Notes under the pieces: model-generated
What the model was told of the DNA's origin: nothing
Database searches by the model: none
The model's input: only the letters and a program-made list of their open reading frames with translations
Shown here: in pieces, positions 8,269 to 39,716 of the stretch
How positions within the stretch are numbered: the first letter of the stretch is position 1
Layout: the number at the start of each line of letters is the position of its first letter
Origin: an uncultured Balneola sp.
Lineage (GTDB): Bacteria; Bacteroidota; Rhodothermia; Balneolales; Balneolaceae
Direction of reading: 5' to 3'
Assembly: GCA_902529365.1 (NCBI GenBank)
Contig: CABZWK010000010.1
Coordinates: 1-64,000, forward strand
Length of the DNA stretch: 64,000 nucleotides
Made by a program: the position numbers and the translations under genes

Positions 8269-9156
8269 TTAAAATAAATCCATTGATATACCCGCGCTCA
8301 GTACTTGCTTAAGCTGAATATCCGTTGAAAAATCATGGTCATAACGCAGTTCAAACTGCAATGAAGTTCGTAGAGTTGAATTTATTTTACCAATAAATTC
8401 GTTAGTCCAATATACATCGGTTTCGTTTATAGGGTGCAACAAATTGGTAAAAGTCTCTATATCCGTATTGTATTGAACATTTTTGAGTACCTCTTTTTGG
8501 AAAGTAATCCCCGTTGTTAGGCCACCCTCAAATCGATAATTATCCCCTTGCTTAAGACCGTAATTGGAGGCTAAATCCTCTCGCAGAATAATGGTTTGTT
8601 TTAACCCGAGTCCTGCTTCCATTTGAAAACTTTTTTCGACATTAAAGCTTATCCCTATCCCCTCGGTTAGGTATGCTGGAGCAAAGAATCCAGAAATTAA
8701 AGAGTCAGCACCTGCGGGATTACGTTTTGCATTGTACTCGAAACCGTCTCGAAACTGTGTGCGTAACATAACCGTACCATAGGCAGAAAGTCGTGTAATG
8801 TCGGAAAATCCAAAGGTGCTACGTGTCCTGATGGTCAATAAATCATCAGATTTACGGGTGTCTCCATTCAAGCGTGCTTGACCATACCTGCCATTAATGC
8901 GAATCCCAAACGCAAATAAATCGCCTCTGTAAATCTTGGAATAATTAGTTGAAAAAGTACCACTAATGGTGTTTACCCCTCCTTCGCTCCAGTTGTCAAA
9001 GCTTGCTTGAGCACCATTCAGATTAACAATCCAATTATCTTCCCAACCTTTTAATGTGTCTGGTATCACAATAGTTTGGGCTATGGTAAAGCCACCAAAT
9101 AATAAAAACAAAATAAAGGAAAGTAGCGCTGTTAGACGTGAGTACGGCAGCCTCAT
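8269..9156 (-). CDS. DUF3078-type outer-membrane beta-barrel protein
   Basis: A 295-residue protein with a signal peptide (hydrophobic residues 8-26, cleavage likely after FTIAQ) and alternating beta strands. The stretch WIVNLNGAQASFDNWSEGG followed by VNTISGTFSTNYSKIYRGD is the DUF3078 signature common in Bacteroidota. The C-terminus ends in Phe (SAGISMDLF), as expected for a barrel inserted by the BAM complex. Its biochemical role is unknown. It lies 10 bases downstream of the phosphoribosyltransferase gene on the same strand, so the two may be cotranscribed. Confidence 0.8.
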   Translation of the reverse strand: MRLPYSRLTALLSFILFLLFGGFTIAQTIVIPDTLKGWEDNWIVNLNGAQASFDNWSEGGVNTISGTFSTNYSKIYRGDLFAFGIRINGRYGQARLNGDTRKSDDLLTIRTRSTFGFSDITRLSAYGTVMLRTQFRDGFEYNAKRNPAGADSLISGFFAPAYLTEGIGISFNVEKSFQMEAGLGLKQTIILREDLASNYGLKQGDNYRFEGGLTTGITFQKEVLKNVQYNTDIETFTNLLHPINETDVYWTNEFIGKINSTLRTSLQFELRYDHDFSTDIQLKQVLSAGISMDLF

Positions 9157-9166
9157 TTTAAGCGAT

Positions 9167-9697
9167 TTATGGATTTTTAAATAATACCACAGCTTCTAAG
9201 TGGTTTGCGTTCAATAATACCTCTACATGCTCTCCAACTTTGGTTGGAATGTTTTCTCCAACAGTATTGGCTAATATTGGGTAGCGCCTATGTCCCCTAT
9301 CAATTAATGAAACAATTTCGATAGCCTCAGGTTCTTGTGAATGGAGCAATATAGAAAGCGCCTGAAATAAGGTTCGACCTGAGAATACAACATCATCCAC
9401 GATAAGAACTTGTAAATCACTAAGATCGGGTATGGCTTGATTACCTTTACTGAATACATCAAAATTATACAGTAGATCACCCTGCTCGGGTCTAAGCTGT
9501 TTGAGTTCGGAAACCAGTTCCTCGGCCAAGGCAAACCCCCGTTCGTTCAATCCAATTACGTGGAGTGGTTGATTCGCTGGGAAGCGTTCGTAAACCTGAA
9601 TAGCCATTCTCTTAATACATCGAGAGATTCGGGCTCGGTCCATGAGTATAAGTTGGTGTTCCATGAGCTTTAAACGTTGTTCTTGGGTGTCATGCAA
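9167..9697 (-). CDS. PyrR-like phosphoribosyltransferase
   Basis: Type I phosphoribosyltransferase of 176 residues. The PRPP-binding loop VLIVDDVVFSGRTLFQAL is intact at about residues 97-114, and IGLNERGFALAEEL and LIDRGHRRYPI match PyrR, the UMP-responsive regulator of pyrimidine genes that also has uracil phosphoribosyltransferase activity. No pyrimidine operon adjoins it; pyrF is about 8 kb away. Whether this copy binds RNA or only acts as an enzyme is not visible. Start ATG at 9697. Confidence 0.8.
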   Translation of the reverse strand: MHDTQEQRLKLMEHQLILMDRARISRCIKRMAIQVYERFPANQPLHVIGLNERGFALAEELVSELKQLRPEQGDLLYNFDVFSKGNQAIPDLSDLQVLIVDDVVFSGRTLFQALSILLHSQEPEAIEIVSLIDRGHRRYPILANTVGENIPTKVGEHVEVLLNANHLEAVVLFKNP

Positions 9698-9846
9698 TTA
9701 TTTAAAGATACGATTTTAGTCATACTAATAAGTGTTTTTTTAAGAGCGTATGCTTTCCGTATTTCCTCAATGTTAAAAAATAGATCGGTTCAGTCTTGAT
9801 TAGGGATTTGTAGCTCCCTATCTTTCAAATCTGTTAACGACTTTTT

Positions 9847-27637: not shown

Positions 27638-29116
27638 TTATTTTTTCGTCTTTAGTTTTGTCATGAACTCATTCATGGTTGAATTAAATTCAGCTGATAA
27701 ACGAAACATGTACGCGATTCCTAAGTAAGTAATTCCTATAATTGCAGAACGGATGGTGATTGAAAGGATGGGGTACCCGTCGATATTTATAAATTCACCT
27801 AAATAAAAACAAGCAATGCCAAGCACTATAATGGATAAGGTGTGCCACTTGAATGGTTGAATCCGAAGGACGAACCAGACGAATATAGTTTTGGTTAGGT
27901 TATATAGTCCAACAGATGTGGCAGTGGCAATAGCCGCACCCATTAAGCCATATTTAGGAATTAAAAAATAATTGAGTAGTACAGCTCCAATCATGAGTAT
28001 TAATGAAGAAATAAAATCAAACCTAAAGAATTTAGAGGTTATGATAATTTGCCCATTTGAACCTGTTGCTAAATCAAACAGATAAGCAAGGCCTAGTATG
28101 GCAATAATGGGTTTACCTTCGGAAAATTCGTTTGGTAACATACGATATAAGTCATCTAGGCTTGTTAAAATGCCAACATAAATAATTAAAGAGAAGAGTA
28201 ATTGATTTAAAGAAGATTGTGTATAAAGTCGTTTAATTTCAGCAAGGTTATTTTCATTAAATGACTTAGCCAAAATGGGGTGGATAATTTTAGCCAAACT
28301 TTTTCTCGGAACGGTGATGACAGTACCCATATACATAGCTAAGGCATAGATACCAGCGTTTTCAAGTCCTTCGAACATATCAACCATTATTAAATCAATA
28401 TTGCTCACTAAAATCATGGTGAAGCCACTAAAAAAAGCGAAGAAACTGTAAGTAAATGTTTCTTTTAAGTCAAGAGAGCTATATGCATTACGTGTTGAAT
28501 GCAGATAATATTTTTGGCTTAAGCTGTATGCCAGTAAAATGAGCATGTTTATCAAATAGGCACCTACAAAGCCTAACATAAAATGCGGAAAACTGAGTAT
28601 ATCAAAGAAGTAAAAAACTAAAAAAAGGAGAATAAGTATTCTCAATAGCACATCCTGTAAAAAAGTGGCAAAAACGGTATCTAGTGAAGCTTTTATAAAA
28701 GCGGAAAAAAGTGAGAAAGTGGTACTTGCAAAAACCATAGGTATTACCAACCATAGGTAAACTTCGAGAAGGGGTGAGTCGGCATATAAACTAAGCCAAT
28801 GAGATTCAAAGAATAAAAAAGAAGTCACATAAATGGTGAGGATAAAAATGGAAGGGCTGATGACTCTTCTGAAAAATTGACTTCTAACTCCCTGATCTTT
28901 TTCTAATGTTGGTACAAATTTTAGTATGGTATTGGGGATGCCAAGTGTGATTATCTGGCTACTAATGGTTGTAATAGCGATTAAGCTTCTTGTTAGTCCA
29001 TACTTTTCGGCTCCCAAAATATGAGGAAATAAAAAGATAGTGGATAACAGACCTAGCCCGATACCTAAGTAGGTAAAGGTTGCATTCCGAATACTCTGTT
29101 TAATTATAATACCCAA
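27638..29116 (-). CDS. Polysaccharide flippase, Wzx/MATE-like
   Basis: A polytopic inner-membrane protein of 492 residues with roughly 14 hydrophobic segments, opening with IKQSIRNATFTYLGIGLGLL and containing FPHILGAEKYGLTRSLIAIT, typical of the polysaccharide biosynthesis (PST/Wzx) branch of the MOP superfamily. Expected to flip an undecaprenyl-linked glycan across the inner membrane. It is divergent from the wecF-like gene (29 bases of track between the ORF limits, about 95 to the chosen start), so the two probably share a control region. Confidence 0.88.
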   Translation of the reverse strand: MGIIIKQSIRNATFTYLGIGLGLLSTIFLFPHILGAEKYGLTRSLIAITTISSQIITLGIPNTILKFVPTLEKDQGVRSQFFRRVISPSIFILTIYVTSFLFFESHWLSLYADSPLLEVYLWLVIPMVFASTTFSLFSAFIKASLDTVFATFLQDVLLRILILLFLVFYFFDILSFPHFMLGFVGAYLINMLILLAYSLSQKYYLHSTRNAYSSLDLKETFTYSFFAFFSGFTMILVSNIDLIMVDMFEGLENAGIYALAMYMGTVITVPRKSLAKIIHPILAKSFNENNLAEIKRLYTQSSLNQLLFSLIIYVGILTSLDDLYRMLPNEFSEGKPIIAILGLAYLFDLATGSNGQIIITSKFFRFDFISSLILMIGAVLLNYFLIPKYGLMGAAIATATSVGLYNLTKTIFVWFVLRIQPFKWHTLSIIVLGIACFYLGEFINIDGYPILSITIRSAIIGITYLGIAYMFRLSAEFNSTMNEFMTKLKTKK

Positions 29117-29211
29117 ATAGTGTATACCTTGGTCTAAGTAATGATGTGGGAAATATACACATAATTATTTTTTACCTTGCGTTCGCTAGAAGCAGGTATT
29201 TAAACTATCAA

Positions 29212-30303
29212 ATGACTAAAAAGCACATTGTACATATTGGCACTGAAAGTGTACTTATCAGGGACTTCATTGAGTTTGTTAATGAAGTAGATGTGAAGAA
29301 TAGACATCTTTATTTTGTTTGGAAAAAAAAAGATGTACAATTGATATCTAGGAATCAGAGTATAATACTTAAAAGGTACTCTCTATTTCGCATGCTCCTA
29401 CAGCCTATGTTGTTAAGGCGGCTATTTAAAGAACTAAGCCGGGCTGATAAAATAATTCTTCATGGCCTAAATGAGATTTTTACTATGTTATTAATCCTAC
29501 TTAGACCATCATTATTTCGGGAAAAAGGTGTTTGGTTTTACTGGGGGGCAGAATTACATAAGTTTAAAAAGTCCAAACCTAATCTTAAAAATAGAATCTT
29601 GCTGTCAATTCAAAGAAAGACAGTTCAGAATATTGGGTATTTAGCAGTAGGAATGCCTAGCGAGTATAATGATATTAAAGCATTTTTTAATGCGAGTTCT
29701 ATGCCTATTTGGTCGTTTAAATATCCAAGTAATGTGCTTGATTTTACAGAAACTCATGAAACAGAACTCGTTGATTTTATTCAGCCAACATCTTTGAGAA
29801 TAATGATTGGTCATTCGGCGGATCCATCAAATGAGCATATGAAATTACTACATCTACTCAATCATCTTTTATCGACTACAGATGACTACTCTTTGTATAT
29901 GCCTTTATCATACGGGAAGAACGTGAATTTAGAGGAAATCAAAAGTACAGGGTATAAATTATTTGGGGATAGATTTGTTCCTATTTTAAAGCTTCTGTCC
30001 TTGAGTGATTACCGAAGTTATTTATCACAAATTAACATGGCTATTTTCCCACAAAAGAGGCAACAAGGTATGGGTAATGTTACCTATTTATTAGCAAACG
30101 GGGCGACTGTTTATTTGCACCCAGAGGCAAATCATTCCGTATATTTTAAAAAATTGGGGATTACTATAGCCTCATCGGAGGACATCATGTTAAAACCAAT
30201 TTCAGAAGCTGATTCCACATCAAATCGTCGAATAATGGCAGAAGTGTTCTCAAAAGAAACATTAACGAAGCAATTACTAAATCTTTTTAATAACGAATGT
30301 TAG
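29212..30303 (+). CDS. WecF-like 4-acetamido-4,6-dideoxygalactosyltransferase
   Basis: Predicted to move Fuc4NAc from its dTDP carrier to a lipid-linked acceptor. The pattern MTKKHIVHIGTESVLIRDFI, LHGLNEIFTMLLIL, KGVWFYWGAELHKFKKSKP, IMIGHSADPSNEHM and RQQGMGNVTYLLANGATVYL matches the TDP-Fuc4NAc:lipid II transferase family (WecF/RffT). I start at the ATG at 29212; an in-frame GTG at 29146 would add 22 unlikely residues. The 363-residue length fits WecF. Its stop overlaps the start of the wecE homologue. Confidence 0.85.
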   Translation: MTKKHIVHIGTESVLIRDFIEFVNEVDVKNRHLYFVWKKKDVQLISRNQSIILKRYSLFRMLLQPMLLRRLFKELSRADKIILHGLNEIFTMLLILLRPSLFREKGVWFYWGAELHKFKKSKPNLKNRILLSIQRKTVQNIGYLAVGMPSEYNDIKAFFNASSMPIWSFKYPSNVLDFTETHETELVDFIQPTSLRIMIGHSADPSNEHMKLLHLLNHLLSTTDDYSLYMPLSYGKNVNLEEIKSTGYKLFGDRFVPILKLLSLSDYRSYLSQINMAIFPQKRQQGMGNVTYLLANGATVYLHPEANHSVYFKKLGITIASSEDIMLKPISEADSTSNRRIMAEVFSKETLTKQLLNLFNNEC

Positions 30304-31433
30304 AAAGAATACCATTTAATAGACAAAATTTATTTGGGCCAGAACTAAGGTACATAGAAGATGCATATCTTAGGAATAAGGTTTCTGGGGATGGGTTTTA
30401 TACACATTGGTGTCAATCATTTTTAGAAGAGAAATTTGGTTTTGATAAAGTACTACTGACCACAAGCGGAACCCATGCCATTGAAATGGCTATGTTACTC
30501 ATAGATATTGGGCCAGGAGATGAAGTGATTATGCCTTCTTACACCTTTGTTTCAACGGCGAATGCTGTAGTCCTAAGAGGAGCTAAACCCGTATTTATTG
30601 ATATCCGTCCTGATACTCAAAATATAGATGAGAGCTTGATTGAACAAGCTATAACCACACGCACAAAGGCAATAATGCCCGTACACTATGCGGGGGTCAG
30701 TTGTGAAATGGATACCATTATGGATATTGCATATAGGCATGAACTTTGGGTGGTGGAAGACGCCGCACAGGGAATTAACGCACGATATAAGGAAAAATAT
30801 TTAGGAGGGATTGGCCATTTGGGCTGTTATTCTTTTCATGAAACTAAAAATATTTCCATGGGAGAGGGTGGTGCATTAATTATCAATGACCCATCTTTAA
30901 AAGCACGAGCCGAGATAATCAGAGAAAAAGGAACTAACCGTAGTAAGTTTTATAGAGGAGAGGTGGATAAATATTCATGGGTTGATATAGGATCAAGTTT
31001 TTTACCATCTGATATTAATGCTGCCGTATTAAAGGCTCAGTTAGAGAATTTAGATGAGATTCAATCCAAAAGGAATCAACTTTATGAACGATATTTTGAG
31101 TCTTTTAACGACTTAGATCCAAATGGGATTAAGATACCCATTATTCCTGAAGACGTGGTATCAAATGCCCATATGTTCTACCTATTACTAGACAACCAAG
31201 AAAAAAGAGATAGTTTTATAAAGCACATGAAAAGTAAAAATATCCTTGTTGTTTTTCATTATGTGCCATTACATACCAGTAATTTTGCTCACCAAAATTT
31301 AGATCAATATCATTTGCCTAGAACGTTAGGAAACGCTCAGAAACTAGTTCGCTTACCTATTTATTATAGTTTACAATATGATGAGCAACAACGAGTAATT
31401 GATGCAGTACATTTTTTTTTAACACATAACTAA
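30297..31433 (+). CDS. wecE: dTDP-4-amino-4,6-dideoxygalactose transaminase (WecE)
   Basis: A DegT/DnrJ/EryC1-type PLP aminotransferase of 378 residues that makes dTDP-Fuc4N from dTDP-4-keto-6-deoxyglucose. It is closely similar by eye to enterobacterial WecE: PGDEVIMPSYTFVSTANA, PVHYAGVSCEMDTIMDIA, VVEDAAQGI, CYSFHETKNISMGEGGAL with the PLP Lys184, IIREKGTNRSKFYRG and NAHMFYLLL. The ATG at 30297 overlaps wecF by 7 bases. dTDP-glucose synthesis genes (rmlA/rmlB) are not in the window. Confidence 0.94.
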   Translation: MLERIPFNRQNLFGPELRYIEDAYLRNKVSGDGFYTHWCQSFLEEKFGFDKVLLTTSGTHAIEMAMLLIDIGPGDEVIMPSYTFVSTANAVVLRGAKPVFIDIRPDTQNIDESLIEQAITTRTKAIMPVHYAGVSCEMDTIMDIAYRHELWVVEDAAQGINARYKEKYLGGIGHLGCYSFHETKNISMGEGGALIINDPSLKARAEIIREKGTNRSKFYRGEVDKYSWVDIGSSFLPSDINAAVLKAQLENLDEIQSKRNQLYERYFESFNDLDPNGIKIPIIPEDVVSNAHMFYLLLDNQEKRDSFIKHMKSKNILVVFHYVPLHTSNFAHQNLDQYHLPRTLGNAQKLVRLPIYYSLQYDEQQRVIDAVHFFLTHN

Positions 31434-31439
31434 TTTGGA

Positions 31440-31922
31440 ATGATCTCAAAAAATGCAAAAATAGGAAATAATGTAACGATACATCCTTTAGCTTTAGTTG
31501 AGGATGATGTTAAAATAGGTGATGGAACAACTATAGGACCATTCTGTATAGTAAGGAAAGGTGCAAAAATTGGGTCAAATTGTTCATTCACAGCATATTG
31601 CGAAATAAGAGGTAATGTTATCATTGGTAATAATACCAAAATGGGTAGCAGATGTACAATTTCAGCAAATGCAGTTATAGGCGATAATTGTTTGATAAAG
31701 TATTCATTTGTTTTAACAGATACACCCAATTTAGAAAAGAATGATGTTAAACAAGTAAAGGGTGTTGGACATGGAAGTATGATTGGTGCTAATGTCACCC
31801 TTATGCCCAATACTTCAATCGGGAATAACTGCGTGATTGGTGCGTGTTCACAAGTTCGCGATGATGTTCCTGATAATGAGATATGGTTTGGTAATCCTGC
31901 AAAACCCTATAAGAAAAAGTGA
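31440..31922 (+). CDS. Hexapeptide-repeat (left-handed beta-helix) acyltransferase
   Basis: A 160-residue trimeric LbH-type acyl- or acetyltransferase. Repeats of the form [IV]G-x4 run almost from end to end (AKIGNNVTIHPLALVEDDV, KIGDGTTIGPFCIVRKGAKI, NTSIGNNCVIGACSQVRDDV) and it ends NEIWFGNPAKPYKKK, the usual coil in sugar acetyltransferases. It sits 6 bases after wecE and just before the wecD-like gene, so it probably modifies a sugar nucleotide or glycan of this locus. The exact acceptor is not visible. Confidence 0.85.
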   Translation: MISKNAKIGNNVTIHPLALVEDDVKIGDGTTIGPFCIVRKGAKIGSNCSFTAYCEIRGNVIIGNNTKMGSRCTISANAVIGDNCLIKYSFVLTDTPNLEKNDVKQVKGVGHGSMIGANVTLMPNTSIGNNCVIGACSQVRDDVPDNEIWFGNPAKPYKKK

Positions 31923-31926
31923 GCCA

Positions 31927-32607
31927 ATGAAATTAGACCAATGGATGACTAAATTTTATGGGACCCCATGGTATAGATTAGATTCAACGGATGAACCTAA
32001 GTTATGTAAGGAAGAAGGTCTGTATGAAATAAGGTTGTTAAGTACTGATTTTTCAGGAATTATTAACGCTCAACAAGATGGATTTTTATTGGTAGAGTCT
32101 TTTATTGAGTTTGAAACAGAGATTGAGCCAAATAATGAAGAGTATGAAGGAATTCGTTTAATGAATAAATCTGATCATTCATTTATTTTAGCATTGAATG
32201 AACAATCTATGTGTCAAAATGAGGGATACAGAACCCGTTTTAATAACCCCATATTCTTTGAGGAGAGTGCTTGTAAGAAATACTACGGTGCAGCAATAAC
32301 AAATAATGTAAATGATCCAAGTGTTTTAACTGCTGTTGTTGAAATCGATAAAGAAGTGGTTGGTTTTTTTATGTTAAAAGTCAATGATCAGCAAACTTGT
32401 AAAGGATTAATGACAGGAGTCATTCCAGAAGCGCGTGGAAAAAGATTACACATTAAAATGCAGCAATTCCTTATCAACCATATAGGGCATCCACTTACAT
32501 TAATAAATACAACACAGTTGTCTAATCTAGCTGTAATTAAAAATCATATTCGTGCGAATCGTAGTCTCTCTAAGATCGAGCATATTTTTTATAAAAAAGT
32601 ACAATAA
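31927..32607 (+). CDS. GNAT N-acetyltransferase, WecD-like
   Basis: A 226-residue GNAT protein. The C-terminal half has KEVVGFFMLKV (strand 4), then LMTGVIPEARGKRLHIKMQQ with an acetyl-CoA loop, and LINTTQLSNLAVIKNHIRAN, as in GNATs of the dTDP-fucosamine acetyltransferase (WecD/RffC) type. The N-terminal half (GFLLVESFIEFETEI) resembles WecD's own N-terminal domain. Gene order wecF-wecE-hexapeptide-wecD supports N-acetylation of dTDP-Fuc4N. I start at ATG 31927; the longer in-frame ORF from 31837 overlaps the previous gene in a different frame. Confidence 0.8.
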   Translation: MKLDQWMTKFYGTPWYRLDSTDEPKLCKEEGLYEIRLLSTDFSGIINAQQDGFLLVESFIEFETEIEPNNEEYEGIRLMNKSDHSFILALNEQSMCQNEGYRTRFNNPIFFEESACKKYYGAAITNNVNDPSVLTAVVEIDKEVVGFFMLKVNDQQTCKGLMTGVIPEARGKRLHIKMQQFLINHIGHPLTLINTTQLSNLAVIKNHIRANRSLSKIEHIFYKKVQ

Positions 32608-32621
32608 CCTACATTAACATT

Positions 32622-33260
32622 ATGCAAAGCATTCAATCATTACTTATTCTAGCTCCACATACCGACGATGCCGAGTTGGGCTGTGGTGGAACCATAGCAC
32701 GCTTTTTAGAGGAGGGTAAAAAGATTTATGTAGCAGCTTTTTCAACAGCCAGAGCCTCACTACCTGAGGGAGCCAATCCTGATCAATTACGAGATGAATT
32801 TCATGCATCTATGGATACTCTAGGCATACCAAAGGAGCAGCTATTTGTCTATGACTATCAAGTCAGAATGCTATCCTATCATCGACAGGAGGTACTCGAA
32901 GAATTGGTTAAGTTACGCCAACAAATAAAACCAGATTTAGTATTAGTTCCTTCAGGTTGTGATTTACATCAAGATCATCAAGTAGTTCACAATGAGGGTC
33001 TAAGAGCATTCAAACAGGTAAGCATCTGGGGATATGAACTTCCTTGGAATCATATCAGCTTTGATACCCAAGCGTTTGTTCCACTTGAGCAAAGGCATTT
33101 GGACGTAAAGTGGAAGATGATGCAGGCCTATGATTCACAGTTCGAGAAACAACGTCCATATTTTACTAAAGAATTTATTGAGGGCTTAGCTCGGGTTAGA
33201 GGTGTACAGGTCAATGAGGCTTTTGCTGAGGCATTTGAAGTCAAAAGACTTAAATTGTAG
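32622..33260 (+). CDS. PIG-L/LmbE-family deacetylase
   Basis: A zinc-dependent N-acetyl-sugar deacetylase fold of 212 residues. The metal motif (A/P)H-x-DD appears as LAPHTDDAELGCGGTIARF and the second motif as DLHQDHQVVHNEGLRAFK, giving the His and Asp ligands expected for GlcNAc-PI or GlcNAc-malate type deacetylases. No signal peptide, so the substrate would be cytoplasmic, for example a nucleotide- or lipid-linked sugar on the inner face. Directly followed by an LpxD-like acyltransferase, ACP and acyl ligase, which suggests deacetylation precedes N-acylation. Confidence 0.9.
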   Translation: MQSIQSLLILAPHTDDAELGCGGTIARFLEEGKKIYVAAFSTARASLPEGANPDQLRDEFHASMDTLGIPKEQLFVYDYQVRMLSYHRQEVLEELVKLRQQIKPDLVLVPSGCDLHQDHQVVHNEGLRAFKQVSIWGYELPWNHISFDTQAFVPLEQRHLDVKWKMMQAYDSQFEKQRPYFTKEFIEGLARVRGVQVNEAFAEAFEVKRLKL

Positions 33261-33294
33261 GCACTCTTCTGCATAAACCTGAGTTACTAAATCT

Positions 33295-34215
33295 ATGACC
33301 TATAAACAGCCTTTTTTTCTGGATGAACTTTTAAACGGTATGACTACCTACACACGTGAAGGTCTGCCTGATAATCATCAATTACATATCGTTGCCTCCA
33401 TCAGCGATATAGACTACGATTCAACCAAAAAAGCTATTACATGGTGTCATCCTAGTGCAGACAATAGACAAGAGATTATTGAAAAAACTCAAGCAACAGT
33501 TATTCTGTGTGATAAAAGTATAGTACTGTCTTCGAGTATGCAATCCACAAAAACATTGATTAAGGTGGATAATCCGAAACTTGCCTTCACTAGGATGATT
33601 CGATCGATTACTATAGATCAAAATGAGCTAGGAATACATCCTAGTTGTGTAGTACATACGGAAGCAAAGATTGATGCTTCTGCTAGTATTGGGCCTAATT
33701 GCACAATAGGAAAATGCATAATTGGTGCAAAAACCGTTATACATGGAAATTGTCATCTCTATGATGGGGTGATAGTTGGGGATGAAGTGGTTATTGAAGC
33801 AGGTGTAGTTTTAGGTGCTGAAGGCTTCGGCTTGGCAAAAACTTCTGAGGGGGCATGGGAGCGATTTCCACACCTTGGTGGGGTGCGATTATCCAACCGA
33901 GTCGAAGTAGGGGCAGGCAGTACTATTGATAGAGGTGCGATTCAAGATACCTTTATAGGCGAAGGAACTAAGATATCGAAAGCGGTACACATCTCACATA
34001 ATGTGAAAATAGGGAAGCATTGCCTAATTACTGGGGCGGTTTCTATCGCTGGTTCTACCACTATTGGGGATCATGTTTGGCTTAGTCCTGGTGTAACTAT
34101 TTTGAATAAGCTTAGTATTGGTGATCATGCATTTGTTGCAATAGGTGCAACGGTAACCCAATCTATTCCTGATCATTACCAAGCAATTGGGAGAAAAATT
34201 ATTCCTAAAACTTGA
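33295..34215 (+). CDS. LpxD-like N-acyltransferase (left-handed beta-helix)
   Basis: A 306-residue protein whose C-terminal two thirds resemble LpxD: VLGAEGFGLAKTSEGAWERF, then PHLGGVRLSNRVEVGAGSTI, then IDRGAIQDTFIGEG, and VHISHNVKIGKHCLITGAVS, with the His equivalent to E. coli LpxD His239 (ISHNV). The position equivalent to E. coli His276 appears to be Lys (TILNKLSI). The N-terminal ~110 residues are not obviously the LpxD uridine-binding domain. Because an ACP and an acyl ligase follow, a dedicated, non-lipid-A acyltransfer is likely. The ACP gene starts just 8 bases after the stop. Confidence 0.8.
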   Translation: MTYKQPFFLDELLNGMTTYTREGLPDNHQLHIVASISDIDYDSTKKAITWCHPSADNRQEIIEKTQATVILCDKSIVLSSSMQSTKTLIKVDNPKLAFTRMIRSITIDQNELGIHPSCVVHTEAKIDASASIGPNCTIGKCIIGAKTVIHGNCHLYDGVIVGDEVVIEAGVVLGAEGFGLAKTSEGAWERFPHLGGVRLSNRVEVGAGSTIDRGAIQDTFIGEGTKISKAVHISHNVKIGKHCLITGAVSIAGSTTIGDHVWLSPGVTILNKLSIGDHAFVAIGATVTQSIPDHYQAIGRKIIPKT

Positions 34216-34223
34216 AAACGGTA

Positions 34224-34448
34224 ATGAACAACATAGAAGAACTGATTCGACAAACACTCATGTTGTCAGCAGATACACAAATTAACGACCAAACTACTCC
34301 TCAAGACATCCCGGCATGGGACTCTCTAGGTCATATAAATATTATAACCGCTATCGAAGATGAATACGATATTGAAATAATCCCCGAACAAATTGCTAAA
34401 CTTGAATCGGTAGCTCATTTCAAAGAACTAATCGAAGAATTATCCTAA
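34224..34448 (+). CDS. Acyl carrier protein
   Basis: A 74-residue carrier protein. The phosphopantetheine-attachment Ser34 is in AWDSLGHINIIT, followed by the acidic helix IEDEYDIEIIPEQI. It is isolated from fatty-acid synthesis genes and lies between an LpxD-like acyltransferase and an acyl-AMP ligase, so it is probably a specialised ACP for that pair. I start at ATG 34224; an in-frame TTG at 34212 lies over the stop of the preceding gene. Confidence 0.92.
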   Translation: MNNIEELIRQTLMLSADTQINDQTTPQDIPAWDSLGHINIITAIEDEYDIEIIPEQIAKLESVAHFKELIEELS

Positions 34449-34453
34449 GCGGA

Positions 34454-35923
34454 ATGTCAACGCCTAATTCCATTATTCAGTCTTTTTTTCAAGTAGTTGA
34501 AGAAAACCCGAATAAAACTGCCGTAATTTGGAAGGATCATTCGCTAAGCTATACACAACTTGCGCAGTGGGTGGAAGCATATGCCTACTTTTTTAAAGCT
34601 AAAGGGGTTAAACGGGGAGATAGAATATTATTTCATGGTCAGACATCCTTACGCTATCCAGCTATTTATTTAGCCTGCCATCGAATAGGAGCTGTTGCTG
34701 TACCTGTTGATGCGAGGATGGCACCAGTAGAACGAAATGAATTATTTATTCAAATTGAACCAGCGTTAGCATTATTCCCAGGCTCCCTAGAAACTAGTTT
34801 CGCCTTTGAAGAGTTGGATCAGGATATCGGCACTTATCAACCAGGAGTAATAAACACTTTTCCTGAAGGCAATGAGATTGCAGATATTTTATTTACCACA
34901 GGTACGACGGGTTCTCGAAAAGGGGTACAACTTACCCATGAAAATATTTTTGCCGGGGCTGCCAACACAAACGAGTTTATCGGGAATACCCCTCATGATA
35001 AAGAAATAATCCCACTTCCACTACATCATGCCTTTGGACTTCGAAGGTTACGGGTAAACTTAATGATGGGTGCGACAGCTATTTTAGAAGAAGGGTTTAT
35101 GTTTCCCCAGCGGTTTTTTGATCATATTTCAGAAGGTGCTACTGGCTTATGTATGGTGCCTACTGGATTTCATGTGGTGAAAAAATTGATGAAAGATCGT
35201 TACATACCTTATTTTCAGAAGTTAAATTATATTGAATTTGGTAGCATGCCCATGCCGGCCGAACAAAAGAGAGGTTTGGCTGAACAACTTCCATCCACTC
35301 GAATTTGTATGCATTATGGATTGACGGAGGTCGCGGCCAATATTTTTACTGAGTTTCATGACGATGCAGCCCATTTGGATACCTTGGGTAAGCCGTCGCC
35401 TAATGTAGATGTTGCAATTGTGGATGCATCGATGAGTCCTGTATCCGTTGGGGAGCTAGGTGAAATTGCGGTACGTGGATCCATACAAACCCCTGGATAT
35501 TGGAATGATCCGGAGCGAAGTCAGCAGGTTCTGGTAAACGGATGGTTTAGAACAGGGGATCTTGCCATTCTAACACCCAATGGGCACATTCAAATGAAAG
35601 GTAGGAACGATGATGTTATCAATATTGGGGGTAAAAAAGTATTCCCTCAGGAGATTGAGCAACATCTTATGAACCACCCAACTGTCCAAGATTGTGCTTG
35701 TTGCCCTGTGGCTAATGAACTACTAGGTGAACAAATACAGGCATTTATCGTATCTAATGATAAAAAGCTTAACACGCAGGAGTGGGTTAATATTTTGCGT
35801 GAATCGCTCGAATCGTATAAAATTCCAACTCAGTTTGAATATGTTGATAGCATACCCTATACCAATACTGGCAAGAAAAAAAGAGAAGCGTTGATTAACG
35901 AAAGGGCTCACAAAAAGCCTTAA
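34454..35923 (+). CDS. AMP-forming acyl-CoA/acyl-ACP synthetase family ligase
   Basis: An ANL-superfamily adenylating enzyme of 489 residues. Motifs: P-loop FTTGTTGSRKGVQLTHEN, HYGLTEVAAN (A5), WFRTGDLA (A7), GRNDDVINIGGKKVFPQEIE (A8 hinge) and the catalytic Lys in YTNTGKKKREAL. Five bases downstream of the ACP gene, it probably loads an acyl group on that carrier, as acyl-ACP synthetases do; use of CoA instead cannot be ruled out. The gene is convergent with the glycosyltransferase gene, one base apart. Confidence 0.9.
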   Translation: MSTPNSIIQSFFQVVEENPNKTAVIWKDHSLSYTQLAQWVEAYAYFFKAKGVKRGDRILFHGQTSLRYPAIYLACHRIGAVAVPVDARMAPVERNELFIQIEPALALFPGSLETSFAFEELDQDIGTYQPGVINTFPEGNEIADILFTTGTTGSRKGVQLTHENIFAGAANTNEFIGNTPHDKEIIPLPLHHAFGLRRLRVNLMMGATAILEEGFMFPQRFFDHISEGATGLCMVPTGFHVVKKLMKDRYIPYFQKLNYIEFGSMPMPAEQKRGLAEQLPSTRICMHYGLTEVAANIFTEFHDDAAHLDTLGKPSPNVDVAIVDASMSPVSVGELGEIAVRGSIQTPGYWNDPERSQQVLVNGWFRTGDLAILTPNGHIQMKGRNDDVINIGGKKVFPQEIEQHLMNHPTVQDCACCPVANELLGEQIQAFIVSNDKKLNTQEWVNILRESLESYKIPTQFEYVDSIPYTNTGKKKREALINERAHKKP

Positions 35924-35924
35924 A

Positions 35925-37238
35925 CTAGCGAATAAGCTCTTTCATATTCGAGTCTAATTGCTGAGAGAGTTTATTGAAGCTGTATTTCTCCATAGACTCG
36001 TTTCTATCATTAAATGAGTGTTCATTCCGACCGAATGCCTTAAAACAACTCATTATATACGCGGAAACCCCGTTCGTATCGGTTCTATCAAAAAAATTTC
36101 CAATACCTGTTGTCTTAACTACTTCCGCTGCGGCGCCTTGAATAGGACCGATGCCAAGAACGTTGGATCCGGAAATCATATATTCAAAGACTTTGGTCGA
36201 TAATGCATAACTACTATTTTTTGAGTTACCAATGGATAATAGCAAAAGATCACTCTTGGGCAGTAAAGCCATCATATCTGAGTGCTGAATGAACTCGCTC
36301 TTTTTAAAGGTTATATTATCACAAATCGACTCTATTTCTGCTTCTACGCTTGAATCCAAACTCCCGAAGAATTCGAAACGTATTCGATGTGCAATTTCAG
36401 GAGTTTCATTTTCGATTCGGCTTAAGGCTTCTAAAAAAGCAGTAGGTCTCTGATTTATTTTTAAACTTCCAAAATAACGAATTGTGAATTCTTGGTTTCG
36501 TTGCAGCTCTCTTTCTTCGGTTTTAATATGATCAGGATCAAAACCATTGGTAATACGATGGATTTTGGATTGTATGGAATCGGGTATTTTGTCAAAAAAA
36601 CCATGATTGACTACAGTTATTCTATCAGCCGAATAAAGTACCTGATTTTCGAGCTGTTTATTCTTTTTCTGGGCTAATGGACTCAGTGGGTTATCATCGT
36701 AGTAATAAATGTTAGTCCAAGGATCTCTGAAGTCAGCAAGCCAAGGAATATTACTCCAAGAGGCCAATTTTTGAGCTATTCGGTGAGTGGTAGGTGGTGG
36801 AGAGGTAGAAAAAATAATATCGGGTGCCTCTTGCTTAATCACTTTTTTTCCTAAAGATACAGCGAACCACTTCCACGTTAATTTAGCATCTGGAATAAGA
36901 ATATTTAACCGCAACCAAACAGCTATTTTGGTAAGTAATCCTTTATTTTTGACGTAAAATATAGAAGGGTTGTGTGTGACACTAGTTTTGCCGGAATTCT
37001 TGTTCGATAGTAATTGAATCGGTTCAATGATGGATGATCTATATACCTTCACGCTAGCAAGTAATGGATCATCTGGATCTGCACGGTGACTAGATGAGGC
37101 TTTCTTTGCAGTTAAAACTACTACTTCCCATCCAAGGCGTTGAAGATATTTTACAAATCTAGAAACTCGGTAGGTACCCACACCTGCAAATGGATACCAG
37201 TAATAGCTAATGACTAAGACCTTAGGCTTTTTTTCCAT
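35925..37238 (-). CDS. Glycosyltransferase, GT4-like (GT-B fold)
   Basis: A 437-residue glycosyltransferase. The N-terminal Rossmann half opens VLVISYYWYPFAGVGTYRVS and contains LADFRDPWTNIYYYDDN; the C-terminal half has VFEYMISGSNVLGIGPIQG, corresponding to the nucleotide-sugar-binding segment. FRYFGSLKINQRP marks the start of the second domain. No membrane spans. It is presumably a glycan assembly transferase of this locus; donor and acceptor are unknown. Adjacent to YfhO with zero intergenic spacing. Confidence 0.88.
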   Translation of the reverse strand: MEKKPKVLVISYYWYPFAGVGTYRVSRFVKYLQRLGWEVVVLTAKKASSSHRADPDDPLLASVKVYRSSIIEPIQLLSNKNSGKTSVTHNPSIFYVKNKGLLTKIAVWLRLNILIPDAKLTWKWFAVSLGKKVIKQEAPDIIFSTSPPPTTHRIAQKLASWSNIPWLADFRDPWTNIYYYDDNPLSPLAQKKNKQLENQVLYSADRITVVNHGFFDKIPDSIQSKIHRITNGFDPDHIKTEERELQRNQEFTIRYFGSLKINQRPTAFLEALSRIENETPEIAHRIRFEFFGSLDSSVEAEIESICDNITFKKSEFIQHSDMMALLPKSDLLLLSIGNSKNSSYALSTKVFEYMISGSNVLGIGPIQGAAAEVVKTTGIGNFFDRTDTNGVSAYIMSCFKAFGRNEHSFNDRNESMEKYSFNKLSQQLDSNMKELIR

Positions 37239-39716
37239 CTACAATTCTTTACTTCGGTACCAAATAATACCCACCCAAAGTCCTAGCAGCAATTGTAAGA
37301 CTACCGAGAGCCAAGATATATATATGCCCTGACTAAATGAGCTGGGTTTAAAATCAAGAGTGAGTTCGTGTTCACCAGGTGGTATGATTAAACCGCGTAA
37401 AAAATAGTTTGTTTTATAAATTTGAATTTCTTCGCCGTTCAATAAGGCTTCCCATCCCGCTGGATAATACATCTCATTGATGACTAGAAAACCTGGTGAT
37501 GAGCGCCGTATACTTACTTCAAGCTCTGCGCCTGTGTACCTTGTAACGTTTACGAGGCTGGTCGAATCAACCAGTGAAGAGCTGGATAATCCGTTGATTC
37601 TTTCCGCGGCTTGGTCTTGCCATAAGTCTACTTGTTCTACTAGAGCAGTGGATGAGAAATCAATTCTAGTTGGATTTTTTAAGTAGTCAAATGCTTCTGG
37701 GCCGCTATTAACAAGCCCGACGCTATCCACAAAAAATGCTTTTGGTAGTATGTTTTGTACTTCATAGACCGACCCCCGTTCAGAAGAGTACATAGGAACT
37801 ATGCCAGGTACATTTAAACCTCCACCATAGGTTATGTATTTGGTGCCAAATAATCGCAGTAAATCTAGGTTGATTCCCAATGTGCCAGCGAATAGCGCAG
37901 CATTATTGGACATAAAAACATCCTGGAACAAACTTAGTTTTGCCCCACTGTACCCTCCAATGGTAGGGTAAAAATAGGATGGTACTGCGTTGTTGAATGG
38001 GTTGTCTAGAAGAGGTAAGACTCGGTGTTCATAGATTCCGTTCTCGTCATATATATTTTGCTGGATGAAGCGATCAAGTGGGCGTGCTTGCCGTTCCATA
38101 AATGCTGAATCGTAGGGGTTTTGACGGGTAAAGCCCGACTCTGGCACGAATCGCATACCAACCTGTAACAAATCGTAGCCTTGCAGTCCGAACAAAAGCA
38201 GTAAGATCACAGTGTAGGATAGTTTAGCGCTAAAATAGGCATAGAGTAGGCCCAAAAGCACAACACTGAGTAGTCCAAAGCGTATAAAATCAGCTCTTGC
38301 TAGGTCTTCCCGTTCAGGTACCAATCGTTGTTGAACATAATTGGCGGCTTGACTTCTAACTTGCGCATTCGAAGGGCTAACTTGATTTTGTTGAGCAATT
38401 TGATTGGCAATTCGGTCAACTTCTTGGGGATTTGTATAGTCTAAGCTGCTATAGCTTAAAAATGTAAAGCCAAAAACCCCTGCAATCACTATCAATGGAA
38501 CCCGTACTTTAGTCAAGCTAAATTTAACTGGTTTAAATTTAGGCAGTGCCTCTAAGCCATATGTTACTAAGACGGAGGCACTAAAAGAAGTGATAACGAG
38601 CCAGGTTTCGGGAGCTCTAAATTTGTCAAAAAATGGGATGGTGTTAAAAGCAAGGTTATTGAATGCTGAGAAGTTTTCCCCCCAAGAAAAGAATAGTGCA
38701 AGCACGCCAATGGAGAGAAAAGCAAAGGGTGTGTAATCCCTGCGTTTGATCAGGCCAAAGATAATAAAGGGAATTACCAGAAAGCCGAGATAGTGAGGGC
38801 CACTGGTAACCGTTTTAGGACCCCAATAGTTTGGAGAGGCGCCACCAAAAGCATTTGGAAGCAGAAGAGTCAAGCTTTCTTTAATGCCCTGTGACCACGC
38901 AAAAGCATAGGATTTATCTAAGCCTGTTGTTTCGGATATGTCAGATCCTCCACGGATACTATATTGAGCATATTCTTGTAAGGGTAGTAACTTTTCAGCA
39001 TTACCAGCGACTCCAATAAGCCCCCCCACAAGTAGTACTAGAGTTAGTTTGATCCACTTTTGTTGTTCCTTAGTTTTAAGTCCATTCCACACATCAAATA
39101 GCCAAACAAAGAGAAGAACAAATAAAAAGTAATAGGTAATTTGCGGATGTCCGGCTCTGAATTCAAGGCTTACTGCAATCGAAAAGACAAGAAGACCACG
39201 CAAAATATTAGGGCTCCTAGTAATGATCCAGTATCCAATTAACATCCAAGGGGCTAGTGCTAGAGCGAAAAATTTGGAGGTATGACCCGCCATAATGATA
39301 ATGGGGAAATAGGTAGTTAAGCCATATATGATGCTGCCAGTAACGGCTATCCATGGCCGGAATCCCATTAGAATGAGTAGTATATACATGCCTGCTAGCA
39401 GAACCCAATATTCAAACGCTGGATACCACTTGTTTAAAAAAGGCTTTATGATTGTATCAAAGTGAGGAACTTGTCGTGCGGTAGAGATAACAAACGAAGG
39501 CATACCACCAAACATGTTTTTTGACCACAATGGCTCTTCACCAAATTCTTCTCGATAATCTATGATGGATTCTGCTCCAGCTCGCCACTGAGTAATATCA
39601 TGACGCTGCATTTCTTTCCCTCCTATAGTTGATGGGAAAAATAAAATCAGAGGCACAAAAAGCAATAGGCCTAGGGCAATCAGATGCTGTATTCGGGAGG
39701 AAAGAGAATCTAGCAT
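37239..39716 (-). CDS. YfhO-family multi-pass membrane protein
   Basis: An 825-residue inner-membrane protein of the YfhO (DUF6541-like/GT-C style) family, with about 12 spans in the first two thirds (IQHLIALGLLLFVPLILFFP, then WVLLAGMYILLILMGFR and others) and a long periplasmic C-terminal domain ending in a final span (LSVVLQLLLGLWVGIIWY). Family members are implicated in glycosylation of surface polymers. The C-terminal portion includes GFLVINEMYYPAGWEALLNG, a conserved YfhO segment. Located at the end of the glycan locus and abutting the GT4 gene and gatC. Confidence 0.88.
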   Translation of the reverse strand: MLDSLSSRIQHLIALGLLLFVPLILFFPSTIGGKEMQRHDITQWRAGAESIIDYREEFGEEPLWSKNMFGGMPSFVISTARQVPHFDTIIKPFLNKWYPAFEYWVLLAGMYILLILMGFRPWIAVTGSIIYGLTTYFPIIIMAGHTSKFFALALAPWMLIGYWIITRSPNILRGLLVFSIAVSLEFRAGHPQITYYFLFVLLFVWLFDVWNGLKTKEQQKWIKLTLVLLVGGLIGVAGNAEKLLPLQEYAQYSIRGGSDISETTGLDKSYAFAWSQGIKESLTLLLPNAFGGASPNYWGPKTVTSGPHYLGFLVIPFIIFGLIKRRDYTPFAFLSIGVLALFFSWGENFSAFNNLAFNTIPFFDKFRAPETWLVITSFSASVLVTYGLEALPKFKPVKFSLTKVRVPLIVIAGVFGFTFLSYSSLDYTNPQEVDRIANQIAQQNQVSPSNAQVRSQAANYVQQRLVPEREDLARADFIRFGLLSVVLLGLLYAYFSAKLSYTVILLLLFGLQGYDLLQVGMRFVPESGFTRQNPYDSAFMERQARPLDRFIQQNIYDENGIYEHRVLPLLDNPFNNAVPSYFYPTIGGYSGAKLSLFQDVFMSNNAALFAGTLGINLDLLRLFGTKYITYGGGLNVPGIVPMYSSERGSVYEVQNILPKAFFVDSVGLVNSGPEAFDYLKNPTRIDFSSTALVEQVDLWQDQAAERINGLSSSSLVDSTSLVNVTRYTGAELEVSIRRSSPGFLVINEMYYPAGWEALLNGEEIQIYKTNYFLRGLIIPPGEHELTLDFKPSSFSQGIYISWLSVVLQLLLGLWVGIIWYRSKEL

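Follow-up and report, generated by a model that had tools for sequence, protein, structure and literature searches.

Several bacterial systems are described in which an amino sugar is deacetylated and then N-acylated. In lipid A synthesis an N-acetylhexosamine (HexNAc) is deacetylated by LpxC, and the amine is acylated by LpxD, a left-handed beta-helix trimer enzyme, from a chain borne by an acyl carrier protein (ACP). In Nod factors, too, a deacetylase (NodB) and then an N-acyltransferase (NodA) act on an amino sugar; the former is a polysaccharide deacetylase, the latter no relative of LpxD. In LpxD of Escherichia coli, His239 is catalytic and Gly257 is the oxyanion residue, D232 and Q236 bind the acyl 3-hydroxyl, H276 contacts the pyrophosphate, and F41 stacks on the uracil (PMC6286764). 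The tunicamycin cluster encodes an N-deacetylase (TunE), an N-acyltransferase (TunC) and an ACP (TunK) (PMC6965331, PMC6105854). In rhodobacterial sphingolipid synthesis AasR acylates the carrier AcpR, and neither coenzyme A nor housekeeping ACPs (PMC9386255). A related set of four genes is analyzed here, located at positions 32622-35923 of a 64,000-nucleotide stretch (hereafter, the window) of contig CABZWK010000010.1 of an uncultured Balneola sp. The source is a metagenome-assembled genome of the Balneolaceae (1.89 Mb, 86% complete). An earlier note on this DNA had described four adjacent, co-directional genes at this site; the four open reading frames (ORFs) are all intact, lie at the same coordinates on the + strand, and are ordered as follows:

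32622-33260, + strand: PIG-L/LmbE-type N-deacetylase, 212 aa (PF02585, 73 bits, above the cut-off)
33295-34215, + strand: LpxD-like left-handed beta-helix N-acyltransferase, 306 aa, catalytic His235 (full-length LpxD model TIGR01853, 206 bits, short of the cut-off of 242.5)
34224-34448, + strand: dedicated ACP, 74 aa, phosphopantetheine Ser34 in the motif WDSLGH (TIGR00517, 36-38 bits, below the cut-off)
34454-35923, + strand: ANL-superfamily acyl-activating ligase, 489 aa, probable ACP loader (PF00501, 203 bits; PF13193, 48 bits)

The genes are separated by 34, 8 and 5 bp, if translation of the ACP starts at the conserved ATG at 34224 and not at the TTG at 34212 chosen by the ORF caller. Numbering from this ATG makes the phosphopantetheine residue Ser34, as the earlier note had it. 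The motifs named there are also present: PHTDD and HQDH in the deacetylase, invariant across 11 relatives, and ISHNV, with the catalytic His, in all 13 LpxD-like proteins of the module.

The complete set was found in 13 of 129 Balneolales genomes, always in the same order. Eight belong to the genus of the window, three to a second genus, and one to each of two further genera; the co-occurrence on which the earlier note had made its module depend is thus borne out. LpxD-like proteins of the module clade were never encountered in the 129 genomes without all their partners. The lowest identities to the window proteins are 73% (PIG-L), 52% (LpxD-like), 44% (ACP) and 51% (ANL), so that the conserved order does not merely reflect recent descent. 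As a control, 75 loci at canonical LpxD genes, drawn from other phyla and from lipid A-bearing Bacteroidota, were inspected for up to 9 kb per side, and no relative of the PIG-L, ACP or ANL genes was found. The four-gene set is confirmed as a real, conserved and functionally coherent observation.

Every reaction of the cassette, as well as its acceptor and its acyl group, is deduced here from gene family and context. Read in this way, with a probability of roughly 0.6, the four genes form one unit for replacing the N-acyl group on an amino sugar of a surface glycan exported by a Wzx flippase. A HexNAc would be supplied by a GT4-type glycosyltransferase or by a nucleotide-sugar pathway, and PIG-L would strip its acetyl group in the cytosol, with either the nucleotide sugar or the glycan on its polyprenyl carrier as substrate. 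The ANL ligase would charge the dedicated ACP with a free carboxylic acid, the LpxD-like enzyme would pass this acyl group on from the carrier to the exposed amine, and Wzx would export the finished glycan. The probable acceptor is a HexNAc common to the locus; that added by the adjacent GT4 is the likeliest candidate.

The LpxD-like protein features hexapeptide repeats and a sub-threshold LpxD N-terminal domain. In a quick tree with support values from the SH-like approximate likelihood ratio test (SH-aLRT), the 13 module proteins make one clade, and all 75 canonical LpxD proteins fall across a well-supported branch. The residues equivalent to LpxD His239, Asn240 and Gly257 are kept in the 13 proteins (H235, N236 and G253), while the positions of D232, Q236 and H276 are occupied in all of them by Ser, His and Lys. 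Canonical proteins feature Asp in 75 of 75, Gln in 65 of 75 and His in 73 of 75 at these columns; the canonical set was chosen by peptide patterns including HNVKIGKH, and perfect conservation in that motif is partly due to selection, other columns being unaffected. The F41 position aligns with Trp in 13 of 13, in a region where the alignment is looser. From the start of ISHNV to the C-terminus the module proteins measure 74-75 residues, versus about 90-110 in nearly all canonical LpxD. The C-terminal domain, which is the main ACP contact of LpxD, is consequently missing, and the predicted model has no C-terminal helix. This AlphaFold2 model, obtained from a 51-row alignment, has a predicted local distance difference test (pLDDT) score of 93.2 and a predicted TM-score (pTM) of 0.85; a 13-row alignment had given a poor model (pLDDT 76, TM about 0.4). 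The best 25 structural matches retrieved by Foldseek are all LpxD, with TM up to 0.83. Loss of the residues which read the acyl 3-hydroxyl, and of the ACP-docking region, is what one would expect of an enzyme with a new donor and an ACP of its own. The comparison suggests that the chemistry of the enzyme would be unchanged, that acyl donor and ACP docking would differ, and that the acceptor may still carry a (pyro)phosphate. The module thus resembles LpxC/LpxD in its logic, in the fold and in the catalytic residues of the acyltransferase, and differs in the use of PIG-L in place of LpxC, in having its own ACP and ligase, in the three replaced residues, and in the lack of the docking extension.

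Relatives of the LpxD-like protein were also noticed away from the Balneolales. On a Sphingomonas plasmid, the exopolysaccharide locus L154 (numbers with L denote the loci compared, those with G the genomes) has an LpxD-like gene (8779-9771) for a protein 39% identical to that of the window; the locus also contains HisH and HisF2-type amidino-transfer genes. LpxD-like genes reside in glycan loci of haloarchaeal plasmids (L155, 7905-11834; L156, 7908-8732), one of them near a polysaccharide deacetylase gene. To our knowledge, lipid A synthesis is not known in archaea.

The ACP of the module is not the housekeeping AcpP, as it scores about 36 bits with TIGR00517 against a cut-off of 70.45; a canonical acpP is found on another contig (C7, 103 bits), in line with what the earlier note had expected of a dedicated carrier. 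Its best solved relative is 2lml (E 1.7e-11), which we take to be GmACP3 of Geobacter metallireducens, a specialised ACP for which the title of the reference mentions a putative role in lipopolysaccharide (LPS) biosynthesis. ANL motifs are conserved across the aligned relatives of the ligase, and its nearest single-domain structures are FadD5, MenE and a fatty-acyl-CoA synthase. The top match, linear gramicidin synthase, is an artefact of three summed domains; adenylation of an amino acid was discarded. In the profile, the ligase has no Asp at the position aligned with the alpha-amino-binding residue of nonribosomal peptide synthetases. To judge by the 5 bp gap and the ANL motifs, the ligase is a candidate for loading the module ACP. 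Its family is a hint of fatty acids; the lost 3-hydroxyl contacts tell only that the donor differs.

A carrier with a ligase of its own is an established device, since in the AcpR/AasR system a specialised ACP is encoded near a cognate ANL-type acyl-ACP synthetase and feeds one acyltransferase (PMC9386255). There the acceptor enzyme is a serine palmitoyltransferase, and the bacteria are different. With the tunicamycin cluster the module has in common that an amino sugar is N-deacetylated and N-acylated, and that an ACP is set aside for the purpose (PMC6965331, PMC6105854). TunC is by annotation of the acetyltransferase type, not LpxD-like, and is set apart here by its description (PMC6965331); the list of tun genes includes no ACP-loading ligase, and the pathway leads to a nucleoside antibiotic instead of a surface glycan. 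The earlier note had named LpxC/LpxD and NodB/NodA as precedents of the logic, a list to which the tunicamycin genes have to be added. A four-gene set in which an LpxD-type enzyme is joined by a ligase of its own was not found described in open-access text: the logic is known from LpxC/LpxD, tunicamycin and AcpR/AasR, and the combination appears to be new. The Nod system differs from the module also in acyl carrier and ligase.

A role in lipid A itself finds no room in these bacteria. LpxC was found in none of 58 Balneolaceae genomes, and is present in 220 of 296 genomes of the phylum sample. In the family LpxB gave no more than four trace matches (18-22 bits). No LpxD match lay above the curated cut-off; LpxA was not searched separately. 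The absence of LptD was not used, as the model misses also the Bacteroides control. By these gene searches Balneolaceae seem to be without the lipid A pathway; no paper on their LPS status was found in open-access text. The absence of LpxC, with LpxB reduced to traces, argues against a lipid A role of the cassette. The LpxD-like gene is the sole LpxD-like match in the 86%-complete genome. The expectation of the earlier note, that the protein should not cluster with canonical LpxD and that a canonical lpxD should exist elsewhere, holds in the first part and fails in the second; the missing lpxD is attributed to the apparent lack of the pathway in the whole family, and not to the module gene being lpxD.

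The first gene of the module shows features of its own. The protein belongs to the PIG-L superfamily, as judged by the Pfam score and by invariant PHxDD and HxxH motifs. H13, D16 and H116, which are presumably the zinc ligands, and D15 are invariant in the relatives. Identification as BshB1, the bacillithiol enzyme, was rejected (TIGR04001, 68.8 bits, cut-off 182.5); the true BshB1 is encoded elsewhere in the same genome (282 bits). Having its own BshB1 and its own AcpP, the genome leaves both the PIG-L protein and the ACP of the module free for a dedicated role. A profile search identified 16 close PIG-L orthologues in the 129 Balneolales genomes, 13 of them within complete sets, and the gene lies beside or close to GT4 even at loci without the LpxD-like, ACP and ANL genes.

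Several data weigh against a single pathway. Three genomes (G418, G046 and G014) contain a PIG-L orthologue and none of the other three genes, which indicates an independent role of PIG-L, in which the amine may be left free. Relative to its partners, the protein evolves about 2.7 times more slowly. Distance matrices of the LpxD-like, ACP and ANL proteins are correlated (pairwise r 0.93-0.95), but GT4, outside the module, shows the same correlation, which denotes co-inheritance of the locus and no special bond among the four genes. Every one of the gene sets belongs to a single order, the Balneolales. Adjacency of genes is no proof that one acceptor passes both enzymes. It may be supposed that PIG-L and GT4 leave a free amine on one sugar, and that ANL, ACP and the LpxD-like enzyme acylate another. 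This division into two pathways would account for PIG-L genes close to GT4 without the other three (G418, G046, G010, G024) and for the far slower evolution of PIG-L. It does not account for the constant presence of PIG-L with the LpxD-like clade in Balneolales, nor for the deacetylase and LpxD-like genes paired or nearby at three further loci, and we regard it as unlikely. At one of these loci (L141, 8416-10046; G066, of another family), a NodB-like deacetylase gene directly precedes an LpxD-like gene within a sugar locus; the latter scores 245 bits, barely over the TIGR01853 cut-off, and the same genome has LpxC. At the others (L147 and L148, in G211 and G466) a different LpxD-like gene lies alongside or near PIG-L, with no ACP or ANL. 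The pairing of a deacetylase with an LpxD-like enzyme therefore recurs with unrelated deacetylases.

Other surroundings of PIG-L genes were recorded. WbqC is among the neighbours of the gene in G418, where the other three module genes are missing. PIG-L orthologues lie beside a WbqC-family gene and a UDP-GlcNAc 2-epimerase gene, without LpxD-like, ACP and ANL genes, in L142 (8165-9540) and L143 (8973-10348); WbqC was recognised by a Pfam match in L142, and assigned by the same gene layout in L143. A conserved protein of about 375 aa is encoded between PIG-L and GT4 in L145 (9264-10397) and L146 (9802-10926), where the other three module genes are likewise missing; it has no Pfam match, and speaks neither for nor against an alternative acyltransferase. 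An ORF adjoining PIG-L in L144 looks spurious. In G023 a second PIG-L gene (L149, 8318-11583) precedes genes for a FabH-like ketosynthase, for a short-chain reductase and for a protein with a weak hexapeptide match; this may be a further acylation set, one which builds its acyl chain itself.

The genes around the module are those of a glycan locus, arranged as hisS and Wzx, a variable block, the module, GT4 and a large YfhO-like membrane protein:

27638-29116, - strand: Wzx-type flippase, which marks a locus for export of lipid carrier-linked glycan (PF01943, 45 bits)
29146-30303, + strand: WecF-type transferase of N-acetylated 4-amino-4-deoxyfucose (Fuc4NAc; the free amine, Fuc4N), variable block (PF07429, 63 bits, above the cut-off; NF002756, 243 bits, below the cut-off)
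30297-31433, + strand: WecE-type sugar 4-aminotransferase, variable block, replaced in L102 (NF008687, 565 bits, cut-off 375)
31440-31922, + strand: small hexapeptide transferase, variable block, absent in L023 and L100 (domain match)
31927-32607, + strand: WecD-like GNAT acyltransferase, probably acylating Fuc4N, outside the conserved module (NF008212, 46 bits, cut-off 219)
35925-37238, - strand: GT4-type glycosyltransferase, candidate partner adding HexNAc (Pfam; synteny)
37239-39716, - strand: large YfhO-like membrane protein, conserved on the GT4 side (PF09586, 25.7 bits, cut-off 28.5; synteny)

GT4 adjoins the module, or sits close to PIG-L, in nearly all related loci; no close match was found for it in the PDB. 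A search of PHROGs gave no informative match. The variable block of the window is a Fuc4N set, in which WecE is over the cut-off, WecF (by NF002756) and WecD below. The earlier note had placed the module in a Fuc4NAc glycan locus, and the cassette may be supposed to act on Fuc4N itself, PIG-L and the LpxD-like enzyme swapping the 4-N-acetyl group of Fuc4NAc. Most of the eight module genomes in the genus of the window do have Fuc4N genes directly upstream, and L105 and L110 combine 4-amino-sugar transaminases with LpxD-like enzymes and small hexapeptide transferases. In contrast, the variable block of G023, of the same genus, consists of two sulfotransferase-like genes and a glycosyltransferase gene, with no aminotransferase in the locus, and that of G005 and G055 of genes for a DegT aminotransferase, a sulfotransferase and glycosyltransferases. 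Where sulfotransferase and glycosyltransferase genes stand in place of the Fuc4N genes, the cassette is still there, and hence it is not tied to Fuc4N. This sugar appears to be already served by the WecD-like enzyme, whose gene is missing from several module loci, and the characterised PIG-L enzymes that we know of use 2-acetamido sugars. Fuc4N is probably not the target of the cassette, and a swap at its 4-amino group seems improbable. Of what the earlier note had proposed, the four-gene module stands, while the tie to Fuc4NAc is not supported.

The LpxD-like genes of L105 (3120-5613) and L110 (8369-10883) encode a separate paralogue, and are flanked by a DegT aminotransferase gene on one side and a hexapeptide gene on the other. 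In these proteins His-Gly replaces the His-Asn of the HNV motif.

The least probable of the readings weighed is that of a lipid A-like glycolipid anchor, in which PIG-L would replace LpxC, the LpxD-like enzyme would acylate the carrier sugar of a surface glycolipid with a long chain, and LpxD relative, PIG-L and their own acyl supply would make up an independently assembled, partial lipid A analogue, acylated on the glycan or on the carrier sugar and anchoring the surface polysaccharide: a family without LpxC, an identical deacetylase-LpxD logic, an ACP nearest to the presumed GmACP3, with its putative LPS role by title, and a ligase similar to fatty-acid ligases would fit, but LpxB is effectively absent, a module in only 13 of 129 Balneolales genomes is no general envelope anchor, and the residues reading a 3-hydroxyacyl chain are lost, which makes this reading very doubtful.

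If the exchange of an N-acyl group by one four-gene unit holds true, a lipid A enzyme would have moved to another glycan, together with its own carrier and activating enzyme, in bacteria without lipid A, and the module would offer a way to unusual N-acyl sugars that is short and open to test. Deacetylase genes beside or near LpxD-like genes in three further genomes suggest that N-acyl exchange generally diversifies surface glycans, a process hidden in annotation because the genes are named as lipid A genes. For the Balneolaceae, the apparent absence of LpxC throughout the family bears on what the outer membrane contains.

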